Source: Verrucomicrobiota bacterium (GTDB lineage Bacteria > Verrucomicrobiota > Verrucomicrobiia > Chthoniobacterales > UBA10450). From it: 46,234 nt of DNA. Below are positions 4,463-43,753 of this stretch, piece by piece. The translations under genes and the position numbers were made by a program. The DNA is taken from positions 1-46,234 of the forward strand of contig QHQA01000044.1 of assembly GCA_003219695.1 (NCBI GenBank). The letters run 5' to 3'. Position 1 is the stretch's first letter. The number at the start of each line of letters is the position of its first letter. The notes beneath the pieces were generated by a model. That model saw only the letters and a list, made by a program, of their open reading frames with translations, was not told the DNA's origin and did no database searches.

Positions 4463-6676
4463 ATGTCCGCTCCGCGCTCCACGCGTTCGGAAATTCTTGG
4501 CGCGTTATCAGCCGGTTTACTCGTTGTCTTCTTCTGTTTCATTCTGCTCTGGCACGATCCGCTCCTCTTTTGGAATGACGATTATGAATTGTCGGTGCTG
4601 CCGGTATTCGCCGATGTGGCGCGCAGTTGGTCGGAAGGAAATTGGCCAATCCTCAGCCCGTATTCCTGGGTCTGCGGAAATCTGGCCGGCGAATTTCAGT
4701 ACGGCACATTCTCGATTTTCGTGAATGCGGTCGTTGTTCTGATCTGGAAATTTTCCCTGACGTTTCCACAACAGGCAGCGGCTCTTGCCATCACACATCT
4801 TTTCGTTCTGGCGACGGGCGCGTTTTTGCTCGCGCGTGATCGCCGATTTTCAGTTCCGTTGTCGATCTTTGTCGCCCTGGTCGCTTCGCTAAACGGCTGG
4901 ATCATTTGTTGGGGCGCCACCGATTGGTTCGGCGCGCTCGGCGCATTTACGTGGCTGCCATGGGCATGGCGGGGCGCCGAGCGCGCGCTAGATCAACAGA
5001 GAACCAAATGGCGATTTCTCTGGCCGGCGCCGTTTGTTTATCTACTGGTGACCGGCGGGTTTCCCTACACGGTTCTCATGTTGCTGCTCTTGATCGCGTG
5101 GCTGTCCGTCAAGTCGTTAGTCGAAACGCGCAACATTTTCTCGGTTTTGCCGATGCTCTTTGGCGTCGCGCTCGGCTTCGGATTATCCGCGCCCGCATGG
5201 CTGGCAATCCTCGATTTGGTTCAGGGTTCAGCGCGCGAGTTGCAGCCGGCAGCCGCGCACTGGCAATGGCGCGTTCCACCTGCGGCGCTGCCGGGGTTAA
5301 TCCTTCCCTCATGGACAGTGAACTGGACCGATTTCTCCTCGCGCTTAATGCCGCGCACGGCGACCGAGCTGGCGTGCGGCTTGGTTGCTCCAGCAGCGCT
5401 CATTGCTGGATTCATCTGGCGCGGGCGCATGCTCGTTAGGCAAATTAAATGGGAGTTGCTCCTGTTGTTCGTCGTGCTGTTGTTCTCAATGCTTCCTACA
5501 GCTGGACTTTTTCGATGGAGTTTTCGCTGGCTGCCATTTTTCCATTTGGTTCTCGCGATTTGTGCCGCAGAGACGCTGCGCTTCCGGCCGGGATTACCGA
5601 TCCCGGCTACAGCGGCCGTTGTTCTCACCTCATTGACAGCAATTGCAATGTTAATCTTGCATGCAACCGGCTCTTACGCTTTCCCGCTGACATGGATTTT
5701 TCTCGGGCTAGCGGCGATTTGGTTGCTGTTAGCGCTTTCGTCGCGCGATTCTAAATTTAACGAATGCGCACCTGTAGCGATTACATTTGCGGCGTTTCTT
5801 GCGACATATTTCTGCCTTCCGACGAACTGTGGCGTGCCGAGATACAATTTTTCTCAGGACCTGCTTAAGCCCTCGCCGCTGGATCCGGAGCGTCTTTATC
5901 TGAGCGTCTATCCATGGGCAGAGCTGACCTATGCCACCTCAAATAAACCCCAAAGAGTCGGTCAAACTCTGCGCCCCGGCAGCACATCGATGTGGGCGGC
6001 ATTGCATTTCATCAATGGCTACAGCCCAATCCGGGCCGCCGGCGTGGCGCGCGAATTCGCAGCGAGCATTCACGGCGAGATTAATCCGGATGCGGGCACC
6101 TATTTGCTCAGTCAACAAGCTGGCAAGAATGGCGAACTGGCTTTGCTAGGCGTGGACGGAATTGTTGTTGCACGCGAATTGGATCTTACCCCTCAGCCGA
6201 GTTCTGAGTGGGAGCTGGTGGTTTCAACGGATGAAGGGCGAGTCTTCCATCGGCTCGGCGCTCCGTTGACGCGAGTGCGTTCAGTCACGTCAATCAATTC
6301 GCGGCCTAACGAACAATTCGCTTCTGCAACGATTTCGGAAATTAAGAATTTGCGAAATTGGGTGGAAGCGGATGTCGATGTGCCGAATGGCGACCGTCCC
6401 GCGTTGCTGATGTTTTCGCGGCCGTACTTTCGCGGATATGAAGCGCGCTTGGGCAATCAAAAACTCGCCGTCACTTCCTATCGCGGATTATTTCCCATGG
6501 TGGAAGTCCCGGGAGGCACGAATGGGCGGCTCACTCTAGCCTATCGGCCCTATTGGCTTATCTGGGGAAGCGGCGCTGCCGTAGTCTGCGCGTTAACCGT
6601 TGCATTGAATCTTGTCGCCGCGATTCCGCGAAGATGTCGAACTCTGAGGATTTGGTTCGATTTTATCCAATCGTGA
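4463..6676 (+). CDS. Large polytopic membrane protein, YfhO-like
   Basis: About 737 residues with roughly a dozen hydrophobic segments through residue 490 and a mostly soluble C-terminal region, closing with one more transmembrane helix near the end. The early extracytoplasmic acidic pair (FWNDDYELSV) followed by NWPILSPYSWVCGN resembles YfhO/GT-C-fold membrane proteins, which in Gram-positives help glycosylate lipoteichoic acid. I chose ATG 4463 because the upstream in-frame codons lie in the right end of the four-helix-bundle element. The last codons overlap the GTG of the next gene. The glycosyltransferase role is a family-level inference; an uncharacterised polytopic protein is the safe reading. 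Confidence 0.7.
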   Translation: MSAPRSTRSEILGALSAGLLVVFFCFILLWHDPLLFWNDDYELSVLPVFADVARSWSEGNWPILSPYSWVCGNLAGEFQYGTFSIFVNAVVVLIWKFSLTFPQQAAALAITHLFVLATGAFLLARDRRFSVPLSIFVALVASLNGWIICWGATDWFGALGAFTWLPWAWRGAERALDQQRTKWRFLWPAPFVYLLVTGGFPYTVLMLLLLIAWLSVKSLVETRNIFSVLPMLFGVALGFGLSAPAWLAILDLVQGSARELQPAAAHWQWRVPPAALPGLILPSWTVNWTDFSSRLMPRTATELACGLVAPAALIAGFIWRGRMLVRQIKWELLLLFVVLLFSMLPTAGLFRWSFRWLPFFHLVLAICAAETLRFRPGLPIPATAAVVLTSLTAIAMLILHATGSYAFPLTWIFLGLAAIWLLLALSSRDSKFNECAPVAITFAAFLATYFCLPTNCGVPRYNFSQDLLKPSPLDPERLYLSVYPWAELTYATSNKPQRVGQTLRPGSTSMWAALHFINGYSPIRAAGVAREFAASIHGEINPDAGTYLLSQQAGKNGELALLGVDGIVVARELDLTPQPSSEWELVVSTDEGRVFHRLGAPLTRVRSVTSINSRPNEQFASATISEIKNLRNWVEADVDVPNGDRPALLMFSRPYFRGYEARLGNQKLAVTSYRGLFPMVEVPGGTNGRLTLAYRPYWLIWGSGAAVVCALTVALNLVAAIPRRCRTLRIWFDFIQS

Positions 6677-7113: not shown

Positions 7114-7147
7114 CGTGGCGAAATCCTGAAAGCAGCCGCCAACGCCT

Positions 7148-8371
7148 CTACAATTTTTTCGGTTCCTCTAGTAACTCGATCACGCGTTTGAGCAAACGGC
7201 CGGCGCCACCGCCGTCGATGCTGCGATGATCGAAGCTCAGCGTGATTTGCGCTTCGGTTTTGGGAACGAATTCATTTTTTGATTCGTCCCACGACGGAAC
7301 TTTTTTGCCGGCGCCGAGACCGAGCAACAACGTTTGGTCGGGCAGAGGAATCGGCGTGCCCCATTCCATTCCGAATATGCCGAAGTTTGAAACGGTGGCG
7401 ATGCCGCCGGCTTGCATGTCGGGTGAAATCCGCCGTTGCCGCGCCAGATCGACGAGTTCCTTGTATTTCGTCGTGAGATCGGCAAGCGAGGTTTTGTCCG
7501 CGCCACGAATGATCGGCACCATGATTCCGTCCTCCGCTTCAACTGCAATGCCGACGTCAATAGTCTTTGATTGCACAACGCGATTGCCGATCAGTTTTGC
7601 GGCTGCGCCCGGATTCTCCGCAAGCGCAAGCGCGAGCGCGCGCAGCGCATAAAGACCGGGCCCGGGCTTTGGACCGCGCGATTGCCGGTCTTTCAATACT
7701 GGATCGAGATTCACGGACGAGCCGATGGTCGAAAGCGGACGCATCCAACTCCGTCGCATCGCATCGGCCACGCCGGCGCGGATAGCTGAAGCTTCGTGCG
7801 CGCTTTGCTTCTCAACCTTCTGCAGGAAATTTTCGAGATCTTTAATGGTTACGCGGTTGCCTGTGCCAGTCCCCGTGATGCCGGCGAGATCGGCCGTTGT
7901 TAATTGCAATTCGGCCATGCGCGCGCGCACGCGCGGGGACATGAAAGTTGCACCTTTGGTAACCACAGGAACCGGCAGGCCGCCGACGCGTGTGCCTTCG
8001 CCATCGCGCGCGCCAATTTTTTTCTCGCGCGCCGGCGCGATTTCCTGATCTGCGCGCGCGGGAATTTCCTCAGCGACTTCCCGCTGCGGAGGAGGCGGGG
8101 CATGTTTGGCGAATCGCGCCGCGTCTTCTTCGCTCGCTTCCACGTAGCCGAGCACCGCACCTACGGGATACGTTTCCTTCAATTGCACTGTGATCTTGTC
8201 GATCTTGCCTTTGCACGGCGTCGTCACACCCATGACAGCCTTGTTCGTCTCGACGTCAAGGATTTCCTGGTCATCGACGACCTCGTCGCCCGGTTTGACC
8301 TTGATATCGACGATCGTGGCTTCGGCGATCGATTCGCCCAACTGCGGCATGATGATTGGAACTTGCGGCAT
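7148..8371 (-). CDS. 2-oxoacid dehydrogenase E2 (dihydrolipoamide acyltransferase)
   Basis: A 407-residue E2 with the three expected parts. A lipoyl domain spans residues 1-80 with the lipoylated Lys44 in DVETNKAVM. An Ala/Pro/charged linker leads to a peripheral-subunit-binding domain at about 144-183 (MSPRVRARMAEL...GNRVTIKDL). The acyltransferase core ends with the catalytic FDHRSIDGG (His382, Asp386). It transfers acyl groups from E1-bound TPP intermediate to CoA in the multienzyme complex. The ATG at 8371 lies five bases after the E1beta stop; the longer upstream frame is rejected because the lipoyl domain starts at MPQVPIIMPQ. No E3 gene is present here. Acetyl versus branched-chain specificity is not decided by sequence. 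Confidence 0.92.
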   Translation of the reverse strand: MPQVPIIMPQLGESIAEATIVDIKVKPGDEVVDDQEILDVETNKAVMGVTTPCKGKIDKITVQLKETYPVGAVLGYVEASEEDAARFAKHAPPPPQREVAEEIPARADQEIAPAREKKIGARDGEGTRVGGLPVPVVTKGATFMSPRVRARMAELQLTTADLAGITGTGTGNRVTIKDLENFLQKVEKQSAHEASAIRAGVADAMRRSWMRPLSTIGSSVNLDPVLKDRQSRGPKPGPGLYALRALALALAENPGAAAKLIGNRVVQSKTIDVGIAVEAEDGIMVPIIRGADKTSLADLTTKYKELVDLARQRRISPDMQAGGIATVSNFGIFGMEWGTPIPLPDQTLLLGLGAGKKVPSWDESKNEFVPKTEAQITLSFDHRSIDGGGAGRLLKRVIELLEEPKKL

Positions 8372-9518: not shown

Positions 9519-10559
9519 TCATTCGTCATTGATTTGATCGGCCAGCTCGCGCGTGGAGATGGCGGACCAATCTTCCTTGCCGCCTTCGGGCGCGGCTTCT
9601 TTTTGCGCAGTGGCAATCGCTTCGTCCACCTGCGTGGCTGCCTCTTTGCGCCACGCAGCCAGCGTCTCAGCGTCTAACAGATTCAGATCGATGATTGTCT
9701 GCTCGGCGACTTTCAGACAGTCGCGAGCGAACGGCTGGCGCTTAACCTCCTCCGGAACATAGCTGGCGTCATCGTGCTCCCCGTGACCCGAAAGGCGCAG
9801 CACCTCCGCAACGACTAACTGCGGCGGGCGCCCGGCGCGGGCGCGTTTCACCGCACCGCCGATCACGTCCAGGCACGCGGAGAGATCCGTTCCGTCGAGA
9901 CTGTAGCCCTCAAAACCATAACCGATGGCGCGGTCAACCAGGTCATCACACGCGAACTCGCGATCGTTAGGCGTGGAGTAAGCGTAATGATTGTTCGTGG
10001 CGACGACCACCAGCGGCACTTGCTCGACGGCAGCGATGTTCATGCCTTCGTGGAACGCACCGGCCTGCATACCGCCTTCGCCGATGCAAGCGAGGCCGAC
10101 GAAGTTTTTCTCGCCTCGAAATCGTTTCGCCATTAACGCGCCGACTGTGACTGAAACCATCGCGCCCAGGTGACTGATCATGGCGAGCTGATTGTCGCGG
10201 GGCCGCCCTCGGTGAATGTTACCGTCGCGTCCGCGCATTGGCCCCAGGCGAGAGCCAAGGTAGGTGCGCGTCACGTCGACCAGCGGTTCGCCGAAGGCGA
10301 ATCGGCCTGCCTGGTCACGAATCAGCGGCGCAAAGATGTCGTTTTTCTGCAAAAACAGACCGCACGCCACGCTGACCGCCTCCTGGCCTTTGCCGATATA
10401 AACGCCGCCGGTGATCAATCCGCCGCGATACAGACTGACCAGTTTTTCCTCAACCGTGCGCGCCAGCAGCATCCAGCGAAACGCCTCGAGGAAACGCTCA
10501 TGTGGCGGCGTAGCCTTTTTCGTTTTTGGTTTTCCGGTGCGCTGCGCCGTTTGAAGCAT
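9519..10559 (-). CDS. 2-oxoacid dehydrogenase E1 alpha subunit
   Basis: A 346-residue TPP-dependent subunit. The TPP/Mg motif runs from GEGG at 160-163 to NN at 189-190 with the standard spacing; the usual GDG is GEG here. Typical flanks are seen: GVYIGKGQEAVSV, PLIRDQAGRF, the phosphorylation-loop-like GHGEHDDASYVP, and a Lys-rich N-terminal tail (KPKTKKATPPHERF). It catalyses decarboxylation of the 2-oxoacid and passes the acyl group to E2 lipoate. It heads the E1alpha-E1beta-E2 run, 146 bp downstream of the SMC stop on the same strand. The GHGEHDD loop fits either PDH or branched-chain enzymes. Confidence 0.9.
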   Translation of the reverse strand: MLQTAQRTGKPKTKKATPPHERFLEAFRWMLLARTVEEKLVSLYRGGLITGGVYIGKGQEAVSVACGLFLQKNDIFAPLIRDQAGRFAFGEPLVDVTRTYLGSRLGPMRGRDGNIHRGRPRDNQLAMISHLGAMVSVTVGALMAKRFRGEKNFVGLACIGEGGMQAGAFHEGMNIAAVEQVPLVVVATNNHYAYSTPNDREFACDDLVDRAIGYGFEGYSLDGTDLSACLDVIGGAVKRARAGRPPQLVVAEVLRLSGHGEHDDASYVPEEVKRQPFARDCLKVAEQTIIDLNLLDAETLAAWRKEAATQVDEAIATAQKEAAPEGGKEDWSAISTRELADQINDE

Positions 10560-10705: not shown

Positions 10706-13700
10706 CTACCGCGACGCGAACGCCAGGCGACCTTGTCTCCGGTTCTGTTCGCCGCCGTTAGATCTCGGTTCGGCGGAAACTCGCGGCGGGGCGGTCAGCT
10801 TCATTCCAACCAGCCTGCTCACGCCGCGCTCTTCCATGGTCACGCCGTAAAGAACATCCGCTTTGGCAATCGTGCGTTTGTTATGGGTGATGATGATGAA
10901 CTGGCTCTGCTTTACGAAGCGTTCAAGCACACGGATGAAACAGTTAATGTTGTTTTCGTCCATTGCCGCATCCACTTCATCGAGGATGCAGAACGGGCTC
11001 GGCCGTACCATGTAGATGGCGAATAGCAACGCCACTGCGACCATGGAGCGTTCGCCTCCGCTCAGCAGCGAAACGCTCTGCAATTGTTTGCCAGGCGGCT
11101 TGGCGGTGATCTCGATGCCGCAGTTGAGCGGATCGTTCTCGTCGAGCAACGACAAAGCGGCGCGGCCGCCGCCGAAAAGCTCGACAAACATTTCGCGAAA
11201 ATTCGCGCAGACTTGCTCGAAAGTTTCGGCGAACAATTTCCTTGTCGTCGAATTGATTCGAGCAATGACGTCGAGCAATTCGCGTTGCGAATTTGTGAGA
11301 TCGGTGTTTTGCGTTTCGAGAAATTTGTGTCGCTCCTCGAGCTCGTCGTACTCCTGGACGGCATCGAGGTTCACCGGGCCCATGTTGTCGAGCTGCATCC
11401 GAAGATCGGCGATAAGCTTTTCAAGATTTGGAGGGGCGAGCTCTGGCGAACCCGGCGTCGCAGAGCCTGTCCTGAGCCCGTCGAAGGAAGCTCCGCCCTC
11501 CATTTTCTCATTGCGCTTCAATTGTGCGCGCAAAGTCTTTTCGAATGCCGCTTCGTCGGGCGCGAACGCGCGAAGATCGACGTGGTAGCTGCGCGAAATG
11601 TGCTCGACCAGATTGTCGATCTTCATCTGCAATTGCGACTCGCGCACCTGCTGCTGGGCGCGGCGGTCCTGCGATTTGCCCAGCGAATCGCGCAAATGCC
11701 GCAGTTCAATTTCGCGATCGGAAATCGTGGCCAGGCGTTGGGCGCGTTGGTCGCCGATTTTCACAGCGTTCGCTTCGGCCTCCTCACGTTGCGCCATTTG
11801 AGTCTTAATTAAGGCTTCCGATTCACGCGATTCTTCAGTCTGTTTCGCCAATTTTTCTTCGTACATCGCAATGTCAGTCTGCCGCGCAGCGATCAGCTCG
11901 GCCAACTCAGTGTCGCGAGCGTTCATCGGTTCGCGCTGCGCGATCAAATTTTCATGGCGCTGACGCTCGGTCGCGACGACCACGCGCAGTTGATTCATCT
12001 TCTCGGTCAACTCTTCTTCGCGCAGCGTGGTCGTTTTCTGCGCCGCTTCGAATGCGGACAGTTCCGTCTGCGCTTTCGCCAGATGCTGGCGCATGGTTTG
12101 AAGTTCGCCCTCCAATTGCGCAATCCGTTGGTCGGCCGCTGCGATCTGACGCTCCAGCGCATTTTTCTCCGATCGCAAATTGTCGGTCCTGCGTTCGGCC
12201 TCGCTGAATTCGCGCTGGAGCTGTGAAGCAATTTCGAGCGCGGCCTTCGCTTCGTCGCGTTTTGCCAAAACTGAATCTCGCTCCCCAGCCAGCGCGGCTT
12301 CTTCTTTAGCGAGATCGGCGATTTGGGCCTTGCGTTCCAACATGGAACTCGCACGGGCTTCGCTGCTGCCGCCGAACACGATCCCTTCTGCCGAAATGAA
12401 TTCACCGGCGAGCGTTGCCATCGCCAGCGCGGGTTCATGCTTTTTGCACTGGAGCGCCTGTTGCAAGTCGGAGAAAATGGCAACGTTGCCCAGTAATTGC
12501 CTAACGAGCGGTTCGAGCGCTGGCGGTGCGGCCAGTTTGTCGGTGGCCCAGGCGAGGCCGCCGGCCGGCAGATCTTTTGGTGCCGGATCCTGCGATGGCC
12601 GCGCCAACTGTGGCATGAGCAGCGCAGCCTGACCAAGTTTCTTCTTCTTGAGTCGCGCGATGATTTCGGCCGCAGCCTCCTCATCCTTTAGAACAACGGC
12701 GTGCAGATTCCGGCCCAGAGCGGCTTCAATCGCTGGAATAAATTTGGGGTCGACGTCGAGTTGCACAACAAGGGAACCGGCAATCGCATCGCGGAACTTT
12801 TTGGGATCGTCAACACCTTTAAGAACTGCCTGCGAACCTTGCGCGAGACCTTCGCCCTCTTTGTTGAGCTGGCGCAGCACGTCAAGGCGCGACCGCTTTT
12901 CCGCGAGCGTGCGCTCGACATCGGCAAGCTCTTGTTCCAGTTGGGAGAGCTCTTTCTGTTTCTCCCGCAGACTTGCTTCGATATCGATTTGGTTACGACG
13001 CCTCGTCTTAACTGGAGCAGCGAGTTGGCTGACGAGTTTCTCCCGCGTTTCGCCTAACGATTGGATTTCGTTAGCGAGTTGCTCGACCTGTTTGCGTGTC
13101 AATTCGCTGCGCGCTTTCGTTCCGGAGAGTTCCTCCTCAAGCGCCGAAATTCGGCTTTCGCATTTGGAAGACGCAAGTTGCAGTTCCTGCAACCGCGCAC
13201 CGCGCTCAACGCGATTTTTCTGAATTTCGCCGGTGAAGCTGGTGAGCTTGGTGAGCTCGGCGTCTTTGTCTTTCAGGTGTCGCTCGATTTCTGCGATCGA
13301 GTTGTTGATTTGCTCGATGTCGGCGGCGTGCTGTTCGCGCTTCGTTTCAGCATCGGCGATGTCGCGCTGCGCTCGCTCGATCAGCTCGGCAAGCTCTTCT
13401 GCGCGCTGGCGATTGAACTCGATGCGACTGCGGTGCGCGGCAATTTCGCTTTCCAGCCGCTGCATTTCGGCACGCGACTCGGCGATCTCGCTGTCAATCT
13501 TATCCAGCGCGCGGCGTTCTTCGGTGAGGGCGTTTTCGCCGTTGGTGATCTTGATCCGTGTAGCGTCCTCCGAACCGGTGAGCCGCTCAATTTCTTCGCG
13601 AGAGATTGCCAGTTCGCGCTCGAGCGACTCGAACTGTCTGCGCGCGTGATGAGTTTCGAGCACGCGAAGGTCTGCGTGCAATGCTTGGTAGCGCCGCGCT

Positions 13701-14332
13701 TTGCCGGCCTGTCGCTGAAGCGAGCCGATTTGCCGTTTCACTTCTTTGATCACGTCGCCGATGCGCAACAGATTTGCTTCGGTCGCTTCGAGCTTGCGCA
13801 GCGCCTCGCGTTTTTGCGCTTTATATTTCGTGATTCCGGCCGCTTCTTCGAACACCGCGCGGCGATCTTCCGGACGCGAACTCAGGATCATGTCGATCCT
13901 GCCCTGTTCCATCATCGAGTACGCTGTCCGCGCAACGCCGGTATCGGCGAAGAGACTTTGAATGTCGCGAAGCCGGCAGGCCGTTTTGTTCAGGAAATAT
14001 TCGGAGTTGCCATCGCGATAAACCCGGCGGGTCACCTGCACGTCATGCCAGTCGATCCCGAGCTCTGCGGCGCAATCGGTAAAGGTGAGTGAAACCTCCG
14101 CAAACCCGACGGGCTTGCGTTTCTCGCTGCCGCTGAAAATCACGTCCGCCATCTCTTCGCCGCGGAGCGACTTGGCAGATTGTTCACCGAGCGTCCAACG
14201 CACGGCGTCCAGCACATTGGATTTTCCGCATCCGTTCGGCCCGACGATAGCGGTGACACCCTCGTGGAAATTAAAGACAGTTTTATCGGCAAACGATTTG
14301 AAGCCGAATAGTTCGAGCGATTGTAAACGCAT
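10706..14332 (-). CDS. smc: Chromosome segregation ATPase SMC
   Basis: A 1208-residue condensin subunit. The N-terminal head has FGFKSFADKT and Walker A GPNGCGKSN (31-39). Long coiled coils flank a central hinge (about residues 505-670, with AALGRNLHAVV and GGSSEARASSML). The C-terminal head has the signature LSGGERSMVAVALL and Walker B FCILDEVDAAMD. SMC with ScpA/ScpB compacts and segregates the chromosome. An extra in-frame insert, residues about 944-967 (SFDGLRTGSATPGSPELAPP), lies just before LIADLRMQLDNMGPVNLDAV and is translated from a dispersed inverted repeat. The last 20 or so residues, after LVGMKLTAPP, look unconserved. Long plus-strand open frames across this gene are shadows. Confidence 0.95.
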   Translation of the reverse strand: MRLQSLELFGFKSFADKTVFNFHEGVTAIVGPNGCGKSNVLDAVRWTLGEQSAKSLRGEEMADVIFSGSEKRKPVGFAEVSLTFTDCAAELGIDWHDVQVTRRVYRDGNSEYFLNKTACRLRDIQSLFADTGVARTAYSMMEQGRIDMILSSRPEDRRAVFEEAAGITKYKAQKREALRKLEATEANLLRIGDVIKEVKRQIGSLQRQAGKARRYQALHADLRVLETHHARRQFESLERELAISREEIERLTGSEDATRIKITNGENALTEERRALDKIDSEIAESRAEMQRLESEIAAHRSRIEFNRQRAEELAELIERAQRDIADAETKREQHAADIEQINNSIAEIERHLKDKDAELTKLTSFTGEIQKNRVERGARLQELQLASSKCESRISALEEELSGTKARSELTRKQVEQLANEIQSLGETREKLVSQLAAPVKTRRRNQIDIEASLREKQKELSQLEQELADVERTLAEKRSRLDVLRQLNKEGEGLAQGSQAVLKGVDDPKKFRDAIAGSLVVQLDVDPKFIPAIEAALGRNLHAVVLKDEEAAAEIIARLKKKKLGQAALLMPQLARPSQDPAPKDLPAGGLAWATDKLAAPPALEPLVRQLLGNVAIFSDLQQALQCKKHEPALAMATLAGEFISAEGIVFGGSSEARASSMLERKAQIADLAKEEAALAGERDSVLAKRDEAKAALEIASQLQREFSEAERRTDNLRSEKNALERQIAAADQRIAQLEGELQTMRQHLAKAQTELSAFEAAQKTTTLREEELTEKMNQLRVVVATERQRHENLIAQREPMNARDTELAELIAARQTDIAMYEEKLAKQTEESRESEALIKTQMAQREEAEANAVKIGDQRAQRLATISDREIELRHLRDSLGKSQDRRAQQQVRESQLQMKIDNLVEHISRSYHVDLRAFAPDEAAFEKTLRAQLKRNEKMEGGASFDGLRTGSATPGSPELAPPNLEKLIADLRMQLDNMGPVNLDAVQEYDELEERHKFLETQNTDLTNSQRELLDVIARINSTTRKLFAETFEQVCANFREMFVELFGGGRAALSLLDENDPLNCGIEITAKPPGKQLQSVSLLSGGERSMVAVALLFAIYMVRPSPFCILDEVDAAMDENNINCFIRVLERFVKQSQFIIITHNKRTIAKADVLYGVTMEERGVSRLVGMKLTAPPRVSAEPRSNGGEQNRRQGRLAFASR
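11430..11501. repeat. Dispersed inverted repeat inside smc
   Basis: The edges GGAGGGGCGAGCTC (11430-11443) and GAAGCTCCGCCCTCC (11487-11501) are near-perfect inverted copies. Between them lies GAGCCTGTCCTGAGC, also found in the repeats at 17481-17535 and 22417-22471. The 72 bp are a multiple of three and keep the smc frame open. Confidence 0.8.
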
Positions 14333-14605: not shown

Positions 14606-15985
14606 ATGGCGGGTGAATCAACGGCGCAGATCCGACAGGCCGAGCGTGTCGATCATCAGTTGATTCGTGGCATCGGCATCCCGGCGCTGACCGCCAACAT
14701 CATTAGCTCCACTATCGGGGCCGGCATTTTTGTTTTGCCCGCAGCTGTCGCGGGAACACTCGGGCCGGCGGCGCCTCTGGCGTTCATCTGTTGCGCGATC
14801 GCCATGGTGTTGTTTGTCACCTGTTTCGCAATCGCAGGCAGTCGCGTATCGCTGACCGGCGGGCTTTACGCCTACGTGGAAGTCGCGTTTGGCCGTTACA
14901 TTGGATTTCTCGCGGGGGTGCTTTACGGGCTCACGGCGCTAGGCGCGGTCGCGGGCGTGGTAAATGTTCTGGTAAATTCAATCGTCATTGCCGTGCCGTT
15001 TCTCAGCGGCGGGATAACGCGGATCATCCTCATGATTCTCGTTTACGGTTCGCTGGTTGCGATCAACGTGCGTGGGGTGCGCGGAGGCGCGGGCGCGGTG
15101 ACCGTCGTCACGTTCGCGAAACTCCTCCCACTGCTCGTGTTCGTCTGCGTGGGAATCTTTTTCATTCATCCGGCGAATCTCATCTGGCAGGCGTGGCCGA
15201 ACAGTAAGTCGTTAGGCGACGCAGTGATTCTCTTGATCTTCGCCTTTGTTGGGATCGAGGTCGCGTTGATGCCGAGCGGCGAAGTAAAGAACCCTGCGCG
15301 CACTATTCCGCGGTCGATTTATCTGGCGCTCGTTATCACCACGATTACCTACATGATGATCCAACTCGTCGCGCAGGGAACGCTAGGCGCCAATCTGGCA
15401 AACTACAAGGACGCGCCGCTGGCTGAAGCGGCTGCGAAATTTCTCGGCAACACGGGCCGCACCCTGCTGCTCGTAGGCGCGGCGATCTCCGCCTTCGGAT
15501 TCGTCACCAGCGACATTCTGAGTTCGCCGCGGATCATTTTCGCTTTCGGCCGCGACGGGGTGTTGCCGCGATGGTTCGCGCACGTCCATCCGCGTTACCG
15601 CTCGCCTGACGTGGCGATCGTCGCGTACGCCGCGATTGGCTTTGCGTTGTCAATCTCCGGAACATTTGAACGGCTGGCCGTTCTCTCCAACGTCGCCGTG
15701 CTGTTGATGTATCTGCTCTGCTGCGCCGCATGCTGGTTTTTAGTGCAACGTGACATCCGCACCAATGGCGGCGAGCGGGTGTTCAATTTTCCCGGAATGA
15801 AAATCGTCCCTGCGCTTGCGATCGCAGTGATCTTCTGGATTCTCGGCCAGGCTTCGCTTAGCGAAAGCTCTATCGGCGACGATACGCGCGCGGGTCTGCG
15901 GCTCGCAGTCGTCGTGCTCGCCATCGCGTCGGTGTTGTATTTCGTACGGAAATTCACCGCACGTTCCGAGCGCGCGAACGCGTGA
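14606..15985 (+). CDS. APC-superfamily amino acid permease
   Basis: A 459-residue secondary transporter with about 12 transmembrane helices. The unwound first helix shows the APC signature IISSTIGAGIFVLPA, followed by GGLYAYVEVAFGRYIGFLAG and, in helix 6, FAFVGIEVALMPSGEVKNP. These are typical of amino acid/polyamine/organocation antiporters and symporters. The ATG at 14606 is preceded by AGGATG about 7 bases upstream. It stands alone with a 273-bp gap before it in which I see no gene. It lies upstream of an M20 peptidase on the same strand, which might link peptide hydrolysis and amino acid movement; this is weak inference. Confidence 0.88.
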   Translation: MAGESTAQIRQAERVDHQLIRGIGIPALTANIISSTIGAGIFVLPAAVAGTLGPAAPLAFICCAIAMVLFVTCFAIAGSRVSLTGGLYAYVEVAFGRYIGFLAGVLYGLTALGAVAGVVNVLVNSIVIAVPFLSGGITRIILMILVYGSLVAINVRGVRGGAGAVTVVTFAKLLPLLVFVCVGIFFIHPANLIWQAWPNSKSLGDAVILLIFAFVGIEVALMPSGEVKNPARTIPRSIYLALVITTITYMMIQLVAQGTLGANLANYKDAPLAEAAAKFLGNTGRTLLLVGAAISAFGFVTSDILSSPRIIFAFGRDGVLPRWFAHVHPRYRSPDVAIVAYAAIGFALSISGTFERLAVLSNVAVLLMYLLCCAACWFLVQRDIRTNGGERVFNFPGMKIVPALAIAVIFWILGQASLSESSIGDDTRAGLRLAVVVLAIASVLYFVRKFTARSERANA

Positions 15986-17420: not shown

Positions 17421-17535
17421 TGTCATGTCGACCGAAGTGGAGACATCTCTCGATCCTTGAACGGTCGTCAGAACAAAAATCAGAGATTCCTCGACGGAGC
17501 CTGTCCTGAGCGAAGTCGAAGGGCTCGGAATGACA
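17421..17535. repeat. GTCAT...ATGAC dispersed inverted-repeat element
   Basis: The left end TGTCATGTCGACCGAAGT and the right end ...GGGCTCGGAATGACA are inverted relatives. Positions 17481-17535 are identical over 55 bp to 22417-22471, which lies inside a coding region. The element fills the gap between the M20 peptidase stop and the NlpC/P60 start. Confidence 0.85.
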
Positions 17536-19144: not shown

Positions 19145-19891
19145 TCATTCAGAGATTCCTCGACTTCGCTCGGAATGACAAAGAATACCAGGCGTTTCAT
19201 TTTTTGCGTAGCGAATCGGATCTTGTATTCCGGCTTCGCGAAAACCTTTGAGCCGCAGGAGACAGGAATCGCATTCGCCGCAGGCGAGACCTTCCGATGT
19301 TGGATCGTAACAACTGTGGGTGAGCGAGAGATTGACCCCGAGCTCGACCGCTTTGCGAATGATTTCGGCTTTCGACGATTTGATGAGCGGCATGTGAATT
19401 TGAAAGCGTCTGCCTTCGACTCCGGCTTTTGTTCCGAGGTTTGCGAGATTCTCAAACGCTTCGATGAATTCTGGTCGGCAATCGGGATAACCACTGTAAT
19501 CAATCGCGTTTACGCCGAGAAAAATGTCGTTGGCGCCAATCACTTCCGCCCAGGCAAGCGCGTACGCGAGAAAGATGGTGTTGCGCGCGGGGACGTAGGT
19601 GATTGGAATGCCGTGCGCGATTTCTTTTCCTGAACGTTGCTTCGGCACAGCAACATCATCGGTGAGCGCCGAGCCGCCGAAGACGCGCAAGTCGATCTTT
19701 GCCACGCGATGTTCTCTTGCGCCTAACGAGTCGGCGACGCGGCGGGCAGCCTGCGTTTCGATCTGGTGGCGCTGGCCGTAATCTAATGAGAGGGCGTAGG
19801 TTTCGTAGCCTTCCGCGAGCGCAATTGCCAGCGTCGTGGTCGAGTCAATTCCGCCGCTTAAAAGAACGACTGCAGGGTTCTCTTTGTTCAT
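19145..19891 (-). CDS. queC: 7-cyano-7-deazaguanine synthase
   Basis: A 248-residue ATP-dependent amidoligase-type enzyme that converts 7-carboxy-7-deazaguanine to preQ0 in queuosine synthesis. The PP-loop motif is [10 protein letters not shown] (about 11-19). The zinc-binding cysteines lie in HSCYDPTS...ACGECDSC. The partner queF lies 59 bp upstream on the same strand. The last dozen residues ([13 protein letters not shown]) are translated from a dispersed GTCAT-type repeat, which also supplies the stop codon, so the natural C-terminus has probably been replaced or extended. The core enzyme appears intact. Confidence 0.93.
19150..19180. repeat. Right end of a GTCAT...ATGAC repeat at the queC 3' end
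   Basis: AGAGATTCCTCGACTTCGCT and the following CGGAATGAC match the right ends of the elements at 17421, 28985 and 38585. The queC frame runs through it and terminates just beyond. Confidence 0.75.
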
Positions 19892-23731: not shown

Positions 23732-23826
23732 GTCATCCCGAGCGAAGTCGAGGGAGCCCGTTGCAATCCTCAACGGTAACGCCGAGGGGTCCTTCGACTC
23801 CGCTACGCTCCGCTCAGGATGACAAC
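23732..23826. repeat. GTCAT...ATGAC element between convergent genes
   Basis: Left end GTCATCCCGAGCGAAGTCGA and right end CGCTCCGCTCAGGATGAC are inverted relatives about 95 bp apart. It fills the gap between the convergent MmgE/PrpD and aldehyde dehydrogenase genes and may act as a bidirectional terminator. Confidence 0.8.
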
Positions 23827-28984: not shown

Positions 28985-29065
28985 GTCATGTCGAGCGAAG
29001 TCGAGACATCCCGTTGCGAAACCTGGCGTGATTCCACGGGATTCCTCGACTTCGCTCGGAATGAC
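28985..29065. repeat. GTCAT...ATGAC element between two beta-oxidation genes
   Basis: Left end GTCATGTCGAGCGAAGTCGA and right end CCTCGACTTCGCTCGGAATG are inverted copies. It takes up most of the gap between the FadB-type stop and the acyl-CoA dehydrogenase start. Confidence 0.85.
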
Positions 29066-29071
29066 GAAGCA

Positions 29072-31198
29072 TTAGTCTTCATAAAATTTCGATCCGTCTC
29101 TGGCGTGCTTCTTCAAAATCTCGCAGGGCGAAAATTTCTCTTCGGTTTGCGCCACTCGTTCCAAATGTTCGGCGATCTTCTTCAGTCCAAAATGTTCAGC
29201 GAAACGCAACGGTCCGCCGCGGAACGGCGCGAAACCTGTTCCTAAAATCATTCCGTAATCTGCGTCCTCCGGCGAATCGATCACTTTTTCTTCCACGCAG
29301 CGCGCAGCTTCATTGACCATTAGAAGAACAAGCCGGTGCGCCAGTTCATTTTCTGTAGCTGGCGGCGGTGACACCGGCTGGGTTGTTGCGTTACCGGGGT
29401 CACCGCCCCCGGCTACAACGTGCGCGTGCCGCCATTCCACCAGCGACTCGTTAGGCGTCTGCGTCTTTCCTTCGTACTTGCGAAAACCCGCGCCCGCTTT
29501 GCGGCCCAGCATCTGCTGATCGCGCAACCAAAACAGAACAGCGGGAACGTGATCCCGCTGGCCGTAGGCTTTCTCGAGTGTGTTGCCGATATCAATTGTG
29601 ATGTCCACGCCGATTTCATCGATCAATCGCAACGGCCCCATCGGCATTCCCCACTCCACCAGTGCATGGTCAATCTTGTTCGCGTCCAAGCCGCTTTCGA
29701 AAAGCTCGGCAGCATCGAGCAGATACGGAAACAAAACCCGGTTCACTAGGAAGCCCGGGCTGTCGCGCACGATCACTGGCAATTTTCCGATCTGTCGGAC
29801 AAAGGCGAGACTTCGGTCGCGCGCTTCCTCAGATGTTTCCTTCGCGACGACGACTTCCACTAGTTTCATCCGGCTCACCGGATTGAAAAAATGCAGACCG
29901 ATGACGTGCTCGGGCGAGACCGTCACTTCGGCCAATTCGCTGACCGGAAGCGCTGACGTGTTTGTGGCGATGATGGTTTTCGGGCCAGCTTCCATCGCTA
30001 GCTCGCGGAACACTTGTGTCTTGATGTCCATCTTCTCCGACGTCGCTTCGATCACAAACTGCACATCGCGCAATTCCATCGGGGCCATTGAGGCCACAAT
30101 GCGTGCGCGACCTTCTTTTGCTTTTTCCTCCGTGATCAATCCGCGCTTCACCGCGTCGCCGTAAATTCTTTCGATCGTCGCCAAACCGCGATCGATCTGT
30201 TCGCGCGCGATGTCGCGCAGGATCACAGTCACGCCGCGAGAGCTGAGCCATTGCGCGATGCCCGAGCCCATCACGCCCGCTCCAATCACAGCGGCGTGCA
30301 CTACTTTTTCGGGCGGCGTTCGCGAAGGTCCTTTCTTGTATTTTTCGGCGAGGAAGAAATTGCGGATCAGGTTTTGTGTCGATTCGGTTTTGCCCAGTTC
30401 AACAATCGCTTCCAGTTCCATTCGCAATGATTGATCGGCCGAAATTGAGAGAGTTTTGCTGACGATTTCACCCGCACGTGCTGGCGCAGGATTGCCGACT
30501 TGCCGTGGAGGGCGGAGCTCCTGCGACGCCGGGCTCGCGGGAGTCCGCTCCTGCATTTCGCGTTTTCCGTCGCGCAATTTGTTGCGTGCCTGATCGATCA
30601 ACTGATCGCGCGGCGCGAGTTCATCCACCAGTCCCAGCTTCAAAGCTTCCTGCGCAAAATGAAGTTTGCCTTTCAAAATCACCTGCGTGGCTTTCTCAGC
30701 GCCGATGAGGCGCGGGAGGCGGGTGCACCCGCCCCACGCCGGTATCAACCCGAGCGTGGTTTCGGGAAGGCCAATCCGCGTCGCGGGATCATCCGAAGCG
30801 ACGCGATAATCGCACGCCAGCGCGACTTCGTACCCTCCGCCGGCGGACGCGCCGTGGATCGCAGCAACGGCCGGAATTTTTAGATCGGCAAGCCGCGTAA
30901 AGATCTGCTGGCCTTTGGCAATGAATGCGCGCATGTCGCCGGACTGCGCCTGTTGCAACAATGTCTTCAAGTCCGCGCCAGCAATGAAGATCGATTTTTT
31001 CGCCGAGGCGAGAATCAATCCGCTCAACGAGGCTTCCTGCTCAATGAAATCGAGATGTTCATTTAGTTCATCCAGCGTGGCGGCATCGAAAATATTCGCG
31101 CCCGAATCCGGGCGGTCGAAGGTCAGTACACAGATGTGGTCCTGGCCAATCTCGCGCCGAATCATTGGTGCTGTAGCAACTGAGGGCATCACATTCAT
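29072..31198 (-). CDS. Bifunctional enoyl-CoA hydratase / 3-hydroxyacyl-CoA dehydrogenase (FadB/FadJ-like)
   Basis: A 708-residue beta-oxidation enzyme. Residues 1-200 form a crotonase domain (oxyanion-hole FIAGADLK, then GGGYEVALACDYRVAS and GLPETTLGLIPAWGG). From about 305 a Rossmann domain begins with AAVIGAGVMGSGIAQWL, and the dehydrogenase catalytic region has GLHFFNPVSRMKLVEVV and RDSPGFLVNRVLFPYL. It hydrates enoyl-CoA and oxidises the 3-hydroxyacyl-CoA with NAD. Two extra in-frame stretches are translated dispersed repeats: about residues 215-231 (TPASPASQELRPPRQVG) and 594-614 (VVAGGGDPGNATTQPVSPPP). Both fall in inter-domain linkers. The gene heads a run with the acyl-CoA dehydrogenase. 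Confidence 0.92.
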   Translation of the reverse strand: MNVMPSVATAPMIRREIGQDHICVLTFDRPDSGANIFDAATLDELNEHLDFIEQEASLSGLILASAKKSIFIAGADLKTLLQQAQSGDMRAFIAKGQQIFTRLADLKIPAVAAIHGASAGGGYEVALACDYRVASDDPATRIGLPETTLGLIPAWGGCTRLPRLIGAEKATQVILKGKLHFAQEALKLGLVDELAPRDQLIDQARNKLRDGKREMQERTPASPASQELRPPRQVGNPAPARAGEIVSKTLSISADQSLRMELEAIVELGKTESTQNLIRNFFLAEKYKKGPSRTPPEKVVHAAVIGAGVMGSGIAQWLSSRGVTVILRDIAREQIDRGLATIERIYGDAVKRGLITEEKAKEGRARIVASMAPMELRDVQFVIEATSEKMDIKTQVFRELAMEAGPKTIIATNTSALPVSELAEVTVSPEHVIGLHFFNPVSRMKLVEVVVAKETSEEARDRSLAFVRQIGKLPVIVRDSPGFLVNRVLFPYLLDAAELFESGLDANKIDHALVEWGMPMGPLRLIDEIGVDITIDIGNTLEKAYGQRDHVPAVLFWLRDQQMLGRKAGAGFRKYEGKTQTPNESLVEWRHAHVVAGGGDPGNATTQPVSPPPATENELAHRLVLLMVNEAARCVEEKVIDSPEDADYGMILGTGFAPFRGGPLRFAEHFGLKKIAEHLERVAQTEEKFSPCEILKKHARDGSKFYED
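29355..29416. repeat. GTAGC...GGCTAC inverted repeat inside the FadB-type gene
   Basis: GTAGCTGGCGGCGGTGACACC and GGGGTCACCGCC-CCCGGCTAC are inverted arms about 20 bp long. Relatives occur at 35357-35380 and, more weakly, at 32727-32780. The gene frame stays open through it. Confidence 0.8.
30507..30554. repeat. GGAGGGCGGAGC repeat inside the FadB-type gene
   Basis: Begins with GGAGGGCGGAGCTCCTGCGA and ends with GTCCGCTCCTGC. It belongs to the same family as the repeat inside smc at 11430-11501 and, like it, keeps the host frame open. Confidence 0.75.
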
Positions 31199-31329: not shown

Positions 31330-32727
31330 GTGGTCGGCAAGATTCTGGAACCCGAGATCAGAAGCATGATCGACGCCCGAAATTTCGGCGCGTTGCGTGA
31401 GCTGTTTCGCGAGTGGCCGCCAGCCGACGTGGCTGAAGTTATCCTTGATCTGCCGGAAAACGAACAAGTCATCATTTTCCGGATTCTGCCACATGCTCTG
31501 GCAGCGGACGTCTTTGAATACCTCGATTTTGATGCGCAACAGAAGTTGTTGCATGCCATGGCCCACGAACAGGTGGTTGGCATCCTGAACGAGATGTCGC
31601 CGGATGATCGGACGGCGCTGCTCGAGGAAATGCCAAGCGCAGCGGCCCGGCAGTTGATTCGATTGCTCTCGCCGGAGGAGCGCCGCGTGGCCACGGCGCT
31701 GCTCGGTTACCCCGAAGACAGCGTGGGCCGTTTGATGACGCCGGACTTCATCGCGGTGAAAGAAGATTGGACCGTGCAACAAGTGCTCGATTACGTTCGC
31801 GAGCACGGCCGGGACAGCGAGACGCTCAACGTGGTCTATGTCGTCGACGATCGCGGCAAGCTCATCGATGACCTGCGGATCCGCGAATTTCTTCTGCGGC
31901 CGCTCGACGCGAAGGTAAGCGATTTCCGCGATCACACTTTCGTGGCGTTGAACGTGACCGAATCCCAGCAGGACGCGCTGAATATGTTTCGCAAATACGA
32001 TCGCACCGCGCTGCCGGTGGTTGATTCCAGCGGCGTGCTAGTTGGGATCGTCACCATCGATGACATGCTCGACGTCGCCGAACAAGAAGCCACCGAGGAC
32101 ATCCAGAAATTTGGCGGCATGGAGGCGCTGGACGAGCCCTACATGCGCATCTCTCTCTGGAAAATGATTCGGAAACGCGCCGGCTGGCTGGTGATTTTGT
32201 TTCTAGGCGAAATGCTGACCGCGACCGCGATGGCGAATTTTCAAGATGAAATCGCGCGCGCCGTGGTGCTGGCCTTGTTTTTGCCGTTGATCATTTCCAG
32301 CGGCGGCAATTCCGGCTCGCAGGCATCGACGTTAATTGTGCGCGCGATGGCGCTGGGAGAAGTGACGCTGCGCGATTGGTGGCGCGTGGCGGCGCGCGAG
32401 ATTCAGGCTGGTCTCTCGTTAGGCGTAATCCTCGGCGCGATCGGCATCTTGCGCGTCGCGCTGTGGTCAATCGTTGGCGAGAAATATTTTCACCGCAGTT
32501 TGTACGGTCCGCACTGGCCACTGGTCGCCTTAACTGTCGGGTTTGCGCTTGTCGGCGTGGTGCTTTGGGGCTCGTTCTCCGGCTCGATGCTGCCATTTGT
32601 CCTGCGCCGCGTCGGCGCGGATCCGGCGACTTCGTCTGCGCCATTTGTCGCAACACTGGTCGATGTCACCGGGCTGGTCATTTATTTCAGCATCGCGTTG
32701 GTCATTATGCGTGGTGTAATGCTGTAA
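31330..32727 (+). CDS. mgtE: Magnesium transporter MgtE
   Basis: A 465-residue MgtE: an N-terminal alpha-superhelical domain of about 125 residues ([35 protein letters not shown]), a pair of CBS domains (about 130-255, with [20 protein letters not shown]), the plug helix, and a five-helix membrane domain with the signature [22 protein letters not shown]. The family forms Mg2+-gated channels in the inner membrane, and the acidic N and CBS domains sense cytoplasmic Mg2+. The frame opens with GTG at 31330, and there is no ATG nearby that keeps the N-terminus, so the exact start is uncertain. The phosphate-uptake pair follows on the same strand. Confidence 0.93.
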
Positions 32728-34476: not shown

Positions 34477-34522
34477 CTAATGGCCTAACGAGAGAGAGCT
34501 AAGGCACGACCGCCGAGAGCGT

Positions 34523-34882
34523 TCATGGGTTAGAGCCTCTGCTGTGCCAATATCCGGCGCCTCGGAGACGGTGCCACTGACGGAAGAAGTACGTAAACGG
34601 AGGAACTGCCCCGAGAATCCCGAAGCTGATCGCGAGCGCGTACGCTGCGTTAGTGAGAGGGAACGAGGCACCAATGACCCCTAGCGCAAAGAAGGGGAAA
34701 AACATCGGTGCTGACAGAGTGAAGGCGAAGACGAAGTGCACGGGCAACAACAGCAAGATTCGCCACGTTTGAAACACTTTCGGGCCGATACGACGAATGC
34801 CGGCGATATAAAGGTACGCGGCAGTGAACGAAAATGCGCTGCCGATGAGCGCACCGAGAAAGACGGCAGTAACGTGTCCCAT
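34523..34882 (-). CDS. Four-helix membrane protein of unknown function
   Basis: A 119-residue, strongly hydrophobic protein with about four transmembrane segments: VFLGALIGSAFSFTAAYLYI, ILLLLPVHFVFAFTLS, FFPFFALGVIGASFPL and AISFGILGAVPPFTYFF. Nothing in it identifies a family. It stands alone, convergent with the PiT gene. The hydrophobic pattern makes a real gene likely. Confidence 0.55.
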   Translation of the reverse strand: MGHVTAVFLGALIGSAFSFTAAYLYIAGIRRIGPKVFQTWRILLLLPVHFVFAFTLSAPMFFPFFALGVIGASFPLTNAAYALAISFGILGAVPPFTYFFRQWHRLRGAGYWHSRGSNP

Positions 34883-38584: not shown

Positions 38585-38690
38585 TGTCATCTTGAGCGGA
38601 GCGAAACGAAGTACAGCGCAGTCGAAAGATCTCTAGTTGCTGCCCGCCCATTGTAAAAACAGAGATTCCTCGATTTCGCTCGGAATGACA
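38585..38690. repeat. GTCAT...ATGAC element inside the efflux operon
   Basis: TGTCATCTTGAGCGGAGCGA at the left, ATTCCTCGATTTCGCTCGGA then ATGACA at the right. It fills the gap between the ATPase start and the HlyD-like stop and could weaken or split co-transcription of the operon. Confidence 0.8.
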
Positions 38691-40316: not shown

Positions 40317-40343
40317 CTATGCATAGGAGTCTTATCACAATAC

Positions 40344-42123: not shown

Positions 42124-42125
42124 CC

Positions 42126-42224
42126 AAAAGCGGCACAGAAGTGCCGCACTCCAAAACGTGGCCATCGTTGCCAGCGTGCGGTACGCGCTTGCGTTTTGGA
42201 GTGCGACCGTGCTCCGCCGCTTTT
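42126..42224. mobile_element. MITE-like element with AAAAGCGG terminal inverted repeats
   Basis: The left end (AAAAGCGGCACAGAAGTGCC, then GCACTCCAAAACG) and the reverse complement of the right end (AAAAGCGGCGGAGCACGGTC, then GCACTCCAAAACG) match along about 32 bases, with an exact 13-base inner block. It is 99 bp long and lies immediately upstream of the glycosyltransferase start, likely in its promoter region. A single related end is at 9421-9451. It encodes no protein. Confidence 0.75.
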
Positions 42225-42277
42225 CGAGCAACTCGCGCGAGACGTGGCACTGTCCGACATGATGAGGGGTAAGACAT

Positions 42278-43753
42278 CTACTCTAGGGTAGTCGAGGCGA
42301 TCGGCGGGCGCGCTTTGTGCCAATCTGTGCTTTGCTCGTAGGCGTGCGCGATTTGCAGGACGCGCGCTTCATCAAGTGCTTTGCCTAACAACTGCAATCC
42401 GATCGGCAGCCGATGCCCATCTACTTCGGCAAAACCGCACGGCACGCTGATTCCGCAGATTCCGGCCAGGTTCGCTGCGATGGTGAAAATATCGGCGAGA
42501 TACATTTGCAACGGATCGGCGGCGCGTTCGCCTAATTTGAACGCCGGCACCGGCGAGGTCGGTGAGATCAGAGCATCGACTTTCTCGAACACCATCGCGA
42601 AATCCCGGCGGATCAGCTCGCGCACTTTTTGCGCGCGCAAATAATAGGCGTCGTAGTAGCCGGAACTCAAAACGTAAGTGCTAAGAATGATGCGGCGTTT
42701 CACTTCCGGGCCGAAACCTTCCTCGCGCGTCCGACCGTAAAGATCGAGCATGTCCCTGGGATTTTCCGCGCGATATCCGTAACGCACACCATCAAAGCGG
42801 GCGAGGTTGGCCGAAGCCTCCGCCGTTGCAAGAATGTAATAGACCGCGATGGCATATTCCGTAGTGGGCAATGAGACTTCGATAATCTCCGCGCCTAACG
42901 AGTTCAGATGTTTGACTGCGGTTTTGATTGCGGTTTTCACCTCTGAGTCGATCCCTTCGATCATGTATTGCTTCGGCAGGCCTAACCGGATTCCGCGCAA
43001 ATCGTTTCCCAGTTTTGCGGTGTAATCCGGCACCGGTTCGTTGAGCGCTGTGGAGTCCTGCGGATCATGACCTGCAATCGCGTTCATGATCATGGCCGCG
43101 TCCCGGACGTTTTTGGTTAACGGCCCAATTTGATCGAGCGACGAAGCAAAGGCGACCAGACCGAACCGCGAGACCCGTCCGTAGGTTGGTTTTAAGCCGA
43201 CAACGCCGCAAAGCGCAGCCGGTTGCCGAATCGAGCCGCCCGTATCGGAACCCAGCGCGCCAAATGCTTCATCCGCGGCGACTGCTGCTGCTGAGCCGCC
43301 GCTCGATCCGCCCGGCACGCGCGCCAAGTCCCACGGATTGCGCGTCAATTTCGCGGCGGAATTTTCCGTGGACGAACCCATGGCGAACTCGTCCAGGTTG
43401 GTTTTGCCAAATGGAATCGCGCCCGCTGCGCGCAATTTTCGAATCACCGTGGCGTCGTAGGTAGCCCGATAACTCTGCAAAATCTTCGACGCGCACGTGC
43501 ACGGCTGACCGATCACACTGACGATATCTTTGATTGCAATCGGCACGCCGCCCAGCGGAAGATCCACGTTCGCTTTCTCCGCCTCATTGGCGGCGGATTC
43601 CATGTCCAGCGAGAGATAAGCGCCGATTTCTTGATCGACTAGTTCGATGCGCGCTCGCAACGCATCAATGACTTCGCGCGGCGAGACTTCGCGGTGACGC
43701 AGCAGCAACTGCAGATCGGCAATGCTTAGTGCCGGCAGATCTTGCTGCGTCAT
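42278..43753 (-). CDS. gatA: Asp-tRNA(Asn)/Glu-tRNA(Gln) amidotransferase subunit A
   Basis: A 491-residue amidase-signature enzyme that releases ammonia from glutamine for the GatCAB complex. The Ser-cisSer-Lys triad is visible: Lys75 in GVPIAIKDI, Ser150 in VPGGSSGGSAAAV and Ser174 in GSDTGGSIRQPAALCG, close to the positions in characterised GatA. The length is normal and the C-terminal region has PTSPVPAFKLGE. It overlaps gatC by four bases. gatB is not in the window. Confidence 0.95.
   Translation of the reverse strand: MTQQDLPALSIADLQLLLRHREVSPREVIDALRARIELVDQEIGAYLSLDMESAANEAEKANVDLPLGGVPIAIKDIVSVIGQPCTCASKILQSYRATYDATVIRKLRAAGAIPFGKTNLDEFAMGSSTENSAAKLTRNPWDLARVPGGSSGGSAAAVAADEAFGALGSDTGGSIRQPAALCGVVGLKPTYGRVSRFGLVAFASSLDQIGPLTKNVRDAAMIMNAIAGHDPQDSTALNEPVPDYTAKLGNDLRGIRLGLPKQYMIEGIDSEVKTAIKTAVKHLNSLGAEIIEVSLPTTEYAIAVYYILATAEASANLARFDGVRYGYRAENPRDMLDLYGRTREEGFGPEVKRRIILSTYVLSSGYYDAYYLRAQKVRELIRRDFAMVFEKVDALISPTSPVPAFKLGERAADPLQMYLADIFTIAANLAGICGISVPCGFAEVDGHRLPIGLQLLGKALDEARVLQIAHAYEQSTDWHKARPPIASTTLE

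Follow-up and report, generated by a model that had tools for sequence, protein, structure and literature searches.

Which function, if any, underlies a short DNA word that recurs along a contig of a Verrucomicrobiota genome? We address this question for the 9-mer TCGTTAGGC (word A) in positions 1 to 46,234 of contig QHQA01000044.1 (assembly GCA_003219695.1, Chthoniobacterales), a stretch of 46,234 nucleotides referred to as the window. Word A is an exact, strand-neutral 9-mer that is read in several frames, kept beyond codon need and conserved at orthologous sites. It is scarce around mobile integrases, and in a younger clade it is replaced by an unrelated 10-letter word (word B, AAGATCGACA). 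By analogy with known systems, one family of Chthoniobacterales probably has a pair of uptake-sequence-like words, word A being the ancestral one and uptake recognition its function. The window's family and genus are coded f1 and g1, and its genome, G000, is a metagenome-assembled genome (MAG) of 3.14 Mb in 224 contigs. The nearest relatives of its smc gene are Verrucomicrobia MAGs, Chthoniobacterales among them, and we take the window's relatives to be soil-derived members of the GTDB group around Candidatus Udaeobacter.

A preliminary description of the window had reported eleven copies of the word, six in one orientation and five in the other, ten of them in genes and in three phases. All eleven (11/11) are present, 5 on the plus and 6 on the minus strand, and the gene calls agree with their placement. 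Five copies read Ser-Leu-Gly: 13052..13060 (minus) in the smc gene 10706..14332 (minus), 15209..15217 (plus) in an amino acid permease gene 14606..15985 (plus), 19721..19729 (minus) in gene 19145..19891 (minus), 32416..32424 (plus) in gene 31330..32727 (plus) and 42893..42901 (minus) in an amidase gene 42278..43753 (minus). The Leu-Val-Arg frame is used twice, at 5433..5441 (plus) in gene 4463..6676 (plus) and at 12499..12507 (minus), again in smc. Three further copies read Pro-Asn-Asp or Pro-Asn-Glu, namely 6304..6312 (minus, Glu) in gene 4463..6676, 9964..9972 (plus, Asp) in gene 9519..10559 (minus) and 29448..29456 (plus, Glu) in a 3-hydroxyacyl-CoA dehydrogenase/enoyl-CoA hydratase gene 29072..31198 (minus). 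The eleventh copy, 34483..34491 (minus), is intergenic as described; it lies between convergent genes, one ending at 34476 (plus) and the other starting at 34523 (minus). Word A permits four stop-free strand-and-frame placements, and the genes of the window use three.

The earlier hand estimate of well under one chance copy is borne out by 100 dinucleotide shuffles of the window (mean 0.32, maximum 3) and by an order-3 Markov estimate of 0.24 copies. By the order-3 Markov score, word A is the top over-represented 9-mer of the window. The coding sequence (CDS) of the window has 10 copies, where 1000 within-gene synonymous-codon shuffles average 0.23 and never exceed 3. Such shuffles within genes gave 1.4 expected against 26 seen in a sample of the window's own genome, window included, and 3.4 against 115 in a sample of genome G058. 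In 385 kb of CDS from genome G044, word A occurs 246 times (5.3 expected) and word B 558 times (38.7 expected). Together with the conserved sites in orthologous alignments, these counts uphold the proposal that selection acts on the DNA word and not on protein. They are far from expectation, and in the window they extend over three frames and both strands instead of a single codon context.

Orientation carries no signal that we could recognize. Six whole-genome counts in five genomes gave z between -0.1 and -2.1, and the two strands of A-rich genomes hold almost the same number of copies (e.g. 2299/2306). Relative to gene strand, the words of G044 divide 111/139 for A and 260/299 for B. Along 420 kb of that genome, word orientation follows neither gene strand nor GC skew, which is weak there, so that the replication strand is only roughly known. 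Word A of G044 uses all four of its stop-free placements; for word B, five of the six placements are common and the last occurs once. On contig 4 of G044, both words are denser between than within genes: A has 1.03 copies per kb outside genes and 0.65 inside them, and B has 3.94 and 1.46, respectively. Chi and KOPS (FtsK-orienting polar sequences) are likewise short over-represented words; words A and B differ from them in lacking strand polarity. Among the roles first offered, the uptake sequence fits best, and the Chi/KOPS-like polarity signal is not sustained, since strands are near equal and no link to gene strand or GC skew is found.

Both words are limited to the family among 98 genomes of the order, and word A, which was also counted in a draw of 288 genomes across the phylum, is so there too. 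Within f1 (61 genomes), the density of A ranges from 18 to 1071 per Mb. The richest genomes are G058 with 4605 copies in 4.3 Mb (1071 per Mb, about one per kb), G052 (2754), G035 (2147), G043 (1980) and G044 (1802), and the densities of G043, G052 and G035 are 440-740 per Mb. The 37 genomes from other families of the order hold at most 30 copies each (median 4), always below the reversed control. In the phylum draw, A reaches at most 29 copies outside the family, except in G279, G282 and G291, which belong to a single genus of a different family in the class. These have 75, 133 and 61 copies in about 6 Mb, slightly above the reversed control (controls 48-66).

Word B was found alongside A in 200 kb of G044, with 306 copies (2.4 expected by Markov) against 128 of A. 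Genome-wide, G044 holds 4653 copies of B, or 1604 per Mb, which reaches the level of one per kb, and it is one genome that carries both words in bulk. Copies of B number 996-1509 in g5 genomes, 1070 in G041, 760 in G046, 715 in G045, 147-1016 in g14 and 74-755 in g1. The remaining genera of the family have 11-85, and other families of the order at most 29. The densities of A and B are anticorrelated (rho -0.43 across the 61 family genomes and -0.49 within g1, with 35 genomes).

We compared this pattern with an SMC protein tree of 39 rows (IQ-TREE, one gene, g5 left out). The A-rich genera g2 and g10 branch first, followed by g3, g6 and g9 with moderate A, and then by g7 and g4, in which A is low and B scarce. 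The 19 rows from B-bearing genera, among them that of G044, group in a single clade (99/99). Most simply, A would be ancestral, B would have arisen once and A would have faded, with the proviso that transfer is possible in a one-gene tree. In the same tree, genus g1 is split over two clades, one with g12/g13 and the other with g8/g14, which may reflect smc gene transfer or a composite genus.

Word A is a bare 9-mer with weak flank bias and no clear AT-rich tracts. Word B takes the form (C)AAGATCGACA(A/T), a 10-letter core word with a weak preference for T at 16-18 letters from its start, and it includes GATC. Neither TCGTTAGGC nor AAGATCGACA is palindromic, and a non-palindromic 9-mer would be an unusual methylation site. 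In 420 kb of G044 (L055, L072-L091), B forms 27 head-to-tail pairs whose starts are separated by 15 bp and 14 whose starts are separated by 16 bp. In 200 kb of other contigs of this genome, 9 pairs are at 15 bp and 2 at 16 bp. The other B genomes sampled, whose stretches hold just 2-53 copies each, have no such pairs. Apart from these, G044 has fewer pairs within 100 bp than chance would give (A 7 vs 19 expected).

The state of the words can be estimated from their one-letter variants. We counted variants in genes against synonymous shuffles (8 each) and expressed the excess per perfect copy. For A, this excess is 0.37 in G058, 0.55 in G043, 0.64 in G035 and 0.97 in G044; for B, it is -0.03 in G044 and 1.37 in G046. 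A strong consensus, in which perfect copies outnumber the variant excess, holds for A in G058 and for B in G044. The values of 0.97 for A and -0.03 for B in G044 make B look fresh there and A eroding, and B in G046 is in an eroded state, like A in G044. Samples with few perfect copies of A gave ratios of -0.05 in g6 (13 copies), 0.92 in g3 (5) and 1.07 in g7 (4), and g4 had no perfect copy.

Sites are well conserved between orthologues in word-rich genomes, as judged from alignments around smc, in which pairs overlap and are not independent. Among G058, G043 and G035, 55/110 comparisons of A sites are exact, against 8-10.5% of background 9-mers, and these exact sites come from genomes at about 73% identity. 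The non-exact comparisons mostly show 2-7 changes. For B, 58/116 comparisons over 13 directed pairs are exact, with backgrounds of 6-64% by pair; the lowest conservation (1/8 and 2/9) is within g14. We also compared the A sites of the window with 11 relatives and found 17/42 exact, against a background of 6-15%.

Word A is scarce around mobile integrases. Around eight mobile-type integrases of four genomes, chosen by eye out of 41 PF00589 matches in these genomes, A occurs 9 times against 30.8 expected (P = 4e-6); around two XerC-type control loci, it occurs 20 times against 9.8 expected. On G044 contig 4 (L073-L074), a prophage-like island at about 54.1-74.4 kb has 3 copies of B against about 34 expected and contains a 13-kb stretch without B. 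Its genes include an integrase, a tape-measure-like protein, an ABC-three-component (ABC-3C) defence gene and a weak match to a replication-associated protein. We also notice integrase elements at L250, L252 and L254 that encode a large protein resembling a relaxase, together with small genes of excisionase type (roles assigned by eye). They are similar in G052, G058 and G044, and each stretch has none or one copy of word A.

How do these words compare with known uptake signals? Self-specific uptake words are known solely from Neisseriaceae and Pasteurellaceae, according to the portion available of a 2025 article (PMC12616744). The uptake signal sequence (USS) and DNA uptake sequence (DUS) have a common profile, as excerpted from PMC1626085: roughly one copy in every kb, no preferred orientation, spacing more regular than random, a higher frequency in non-coding DNA, a strong consensus and sharing within a family. 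Measured against that excerpt, every trait except regular spacing is found in at least one word-rich genome here. Word A resembles the Pasteurellaceae USS (Hin-USS, AAGTGCGGT) as a 9-letter asymmetric word that, in the richest genome, reaches roughly one copy per kb. Further likenesses, again to the excerpted account (PMC1626085), are the absence of orientation bias, the extragenic excess, the strong consensus and two types per family. It differs in its phylum and its letters, in that A and B have no common core, in its weak flanks without clear AT-rich tracts, and in that uptake is here predicted. Thousands of copies, family-limited types and an atypical distribution across mobile elements are shared with the Neisseriaceae DUS, as far as the available part of PMC7371117 describes it. 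A few letters around a CTG core set the eight DUS dialects apart from one another (PMC3630211 and PMC12616744, both in part), whereas A and B are unrelated words. The DUS pairs of S. muelleri are, in the material available, overlapping dyads, unlike the head-to-tail B pairs at 15-16 bp. Because the word and the phylum are separate, no core is shared and uptake is only predicted, we do not file the words as DUS or USS. Our literature search, which left most subscription papers and bioRxiv outside, gave no relevant title for the letters of word A among the matches listed. In the literature searched, 'Verrucomicrobia' together with 'DNA uptake sequence' appeared just in a review, and 'Udaeobacter' together with 'natural transformation' appeared nowhere.

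We propose that the type IV pilus bears a surface receptor for DNA, probably one of the minor pilins, which favours word-bearing DNA. DNA of relatives would be taken up, pass through ComEC and be recombined into the chromosome. Word-bearing copies would then spread and persist by molecular drive, and phage and plasmid-type DNA would stay word-poor. A shift of receptor specificity to word B would let A erode and B accumulate, with G044 possibly caught carrying both. In the window's genome, where both words are sparse, the copies of A would be mostly inherited from an A-using ancestor and perhaps lightly maintained. A bolder version, which we hold tentatively and at slightly less than an even chance, is that this is a third, independently evolved uptake system, in uncultured soil bacteria of a phylum far from Proteobacteria. 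The word would have been swapped outright for an unrelated one, G044 would be in mid-switch, and its head-to-tail B pairs (1.5 helical turns) would act as a stronger signal. If so, this third case, in Verrucomicrobiota, would indicate that self-specific uptake evolves repeatedly. It would also imply that these soil bacteria, known here only through metagenome assemblies, often exchange DNA within the family by transformation. The natural series of genomes with A only, with A eroding beside B, with B only and with little of either would then offer tests of how uptake specificity changes. Even if uptake is not their role, two highly abundant and conserved genome words remain to be explained.

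Several observations weigh against uptake recognition. A and B have no evident shared core, and dialects inside each known family do share one; according to the part available of PMC12616744, the shared-core rule holds within Neisseriaceae and within Pasteurellaceae, not between them. Close pairs of A are not depleted in G058 (13 within 60 bp, about 10 expected by our own arithmetic). Counted in larger bins, A follows a Poisson-like distribution, and B is uneven at 20 kb (variance/mean 1.37). Word A is not clearly depleted in the G044 island (8 vs about 14 expected). The conservation of G044 A sites in other genera is mixed (0/11 in G046, 2/3 in G058, 1/2 in G035), and only 2/7 of G058 A sites are exact in G044.

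The machinery gives evidence on both sides. ComEC is present in 92/98 genomes and in 58/61 of the family, and DprA, PilM and T2SSE-type (PilB/PilT-type, PF00437) ATPases occur in all eight family genomes tested (8/8). These genes would make uptake possible; they do not track the words. ComEC is equally common in the outgroups and in g4, which has little of either word, so the machinery does not predict the word, and with 92/98 genomes carrying it, ComEC is ruled out as a predictor. HHH_3 (ComEA-type) domains were found in only 4/8 genomes, and in the four strong matches read, the helix-hairpin-helix ends a larger protein. The HHH_3 protein of G044, the sole one tested, is SNase-HHH by Pfam, and a canonical ComEA is not established. 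A search of six genomes for pilin N-termini (PF07963) gave 71 matches, 66 of them in DNA examined, and 68 pilin-like sequences were grouped. The sampled genomes have pseudopilins of the type II secretion system, and most also have PilA-like pilins and minor-pilin-like genes. No pilin group in this search of six genomes follows the words, which leaves no receptor candidate. No ComP orthologue was identified, no search by that name having been made.

Two further observations concern this machinery. One pilin, encoded next to glgB/xseA-like genes (identified by eye), is of one type in the A-only genomes G058 and G035 and of another in G044/G037. It was ruled out as word-linked, since the B genome G046 has the A-only type. 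The nuclease-like proteins with a C-terminal ComEA-type helix-hairpin-helix (L224 1495-2514, L223, L225 and L222; 4/8 genomes) have a possible role in DNA handling.

The window's own genome adds a further difficulty, with only 59 copies of A per Mb. Word A is nevertheless present above control: its 186 copies (90 on one strand and 96 on the other) compare with 45 (24 and 21) of the reversed word. It is the most over-represented 9-mer (order-3 Markov) in a 246-kb own-genome sample, window included, whose stretches come from hit-bearing contigs, which biases the density upward. B stands at 55 per Mb, so both words are at the weak end of the family, and the level of one copy per kb is not reached. 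The window is about four times denser in A than the remaining genome (11 vs 2.6 expected, P = 9e-5, one of about 68 such windows), so that part of the signal first noticed is local.

Are the copies in this genome then merely an eroding relic of the ancestral word, without present function? We regard this as an even question. In favour of a relic, the density is 18x below that of G058, and the presence of ComEC does not track word density. The smc site 12499-12507 is an exact word A, with the same codons, in the distant A-rich L014, whose SMC is that of G035 and whose smc gene shares 61% nucleotide identity with the one in the window. Six closer relatives deviate from word A at this site by 1-3 letters, which also favours a relic. 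The sharing with L014 fits a word inherited from an A-using ancestor. Set against an unmaintained relic is the variant count in a 214-kb CDS sample, where 26 perfect copies of A (0.8 expected) are accompanied by 39 one-letter variants, little more than the 33 expected and unlike A in G044. The exact matches of window sites in relatives argue in the same direction, in small numbers. The variant excess per perfect copy is 0.24 for A (26 copies) and 2.6 for B (14 copies); in these small numbers word B erodes here, and word A perhaps does not. Our estimate is that the copies of A in the window's genome are probably for the most part a remnant of an A-using ancestor, perhaps still lightly maintained.

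An alternative to uptake for the whole family is that the words are bound by an abundant protein that organises the chromosome or acts in recombination, such as a nucleoid protein or the protein of a non-polar Chi-like hotspot, and that they were replaced when its specificity changed. Strand-neutral, genome-wide and conserved sites that are scarce near mobile integrases fit any vertically inherited chromosomal site. The tandem B pairs, at about 1.5 helical turns, also resemble the contact geometry of a bound protein. We consider this explanation unlikely. The words are not oriented by gene strand or GC skew, unlike Chi/KOPS, and an unrelated replacement word within one family, with A ranging from 18 to 1071 per Mb, would be odd for an essential protein.

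Could the words instead be made and kept by DNA methylation and repair, or by another mutational drive? The model would be the cyanobacterial HIP1 (GCGATCGC), a very abundant short word of unsettled function for which methylation-dependent repair has been proposed, as described in the available part of PMC4390886. The GATC within B is compatible with such a drive. HIP1 is palindromic and tied to methyltransferases, in contrast to the non-palindromic A and B, and the half of A-site comparisons that are exact at about 73% genome identity also speaks against it, which makes this origin quite improbable. An origin by chance, from codon usage or from a recurring protein motif, for which one could cite the 5/11 window copies that read Ser-Leu-Gly, has next to no probability and is already refuted by the shuffles that keep protein and codon use, the use of three frames and of both strands in the window, the intergenic excess in G044 and the near absence from other families of the order.

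Besides word A, the window holds a few other features. Word B is sparse there, with minus-strand copies at 4860..4869, 8197..8206 and 11614..11623, the last in the smc gene, whose product has SMC_N and SMC_hinge domains. Palindromic repeats resembling repetitive extragenic palindromes (REP), with GTCATTCCGAGC and GAGCGAAGTCGA, lie at 17508-17534, 19160-19179, 22444-22470, 23740-23751, 28993-29065 and 38678-38689. They are unrelated to word A, in accordance with the preliminary description.

Outside the family, samples of at most 20 kb from nine order genomes (the one from G061 consisting only of Ns) gave no dispersed word in eight, which is a weak test; G065 and G093 show apparent local repeats. 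G036 (L092, L150-L152) has an over-represented word AACGTCGAAC, 16 copies in 80 kb, which is probably part of a g3 repeat family. A search of viral contigs for the tandem-B pattern gave two matches, at 67-68% GC and without word A. The high-GC viral contig L258 (IMGVR_UViG_3300028590_000081) has 5 copies of AAGATCGACA in 13 kb, more than chance, and also carries a related repeated word, CAAGATCA/CAAGATCG. Viral contig L259 has 3 copies of word B.

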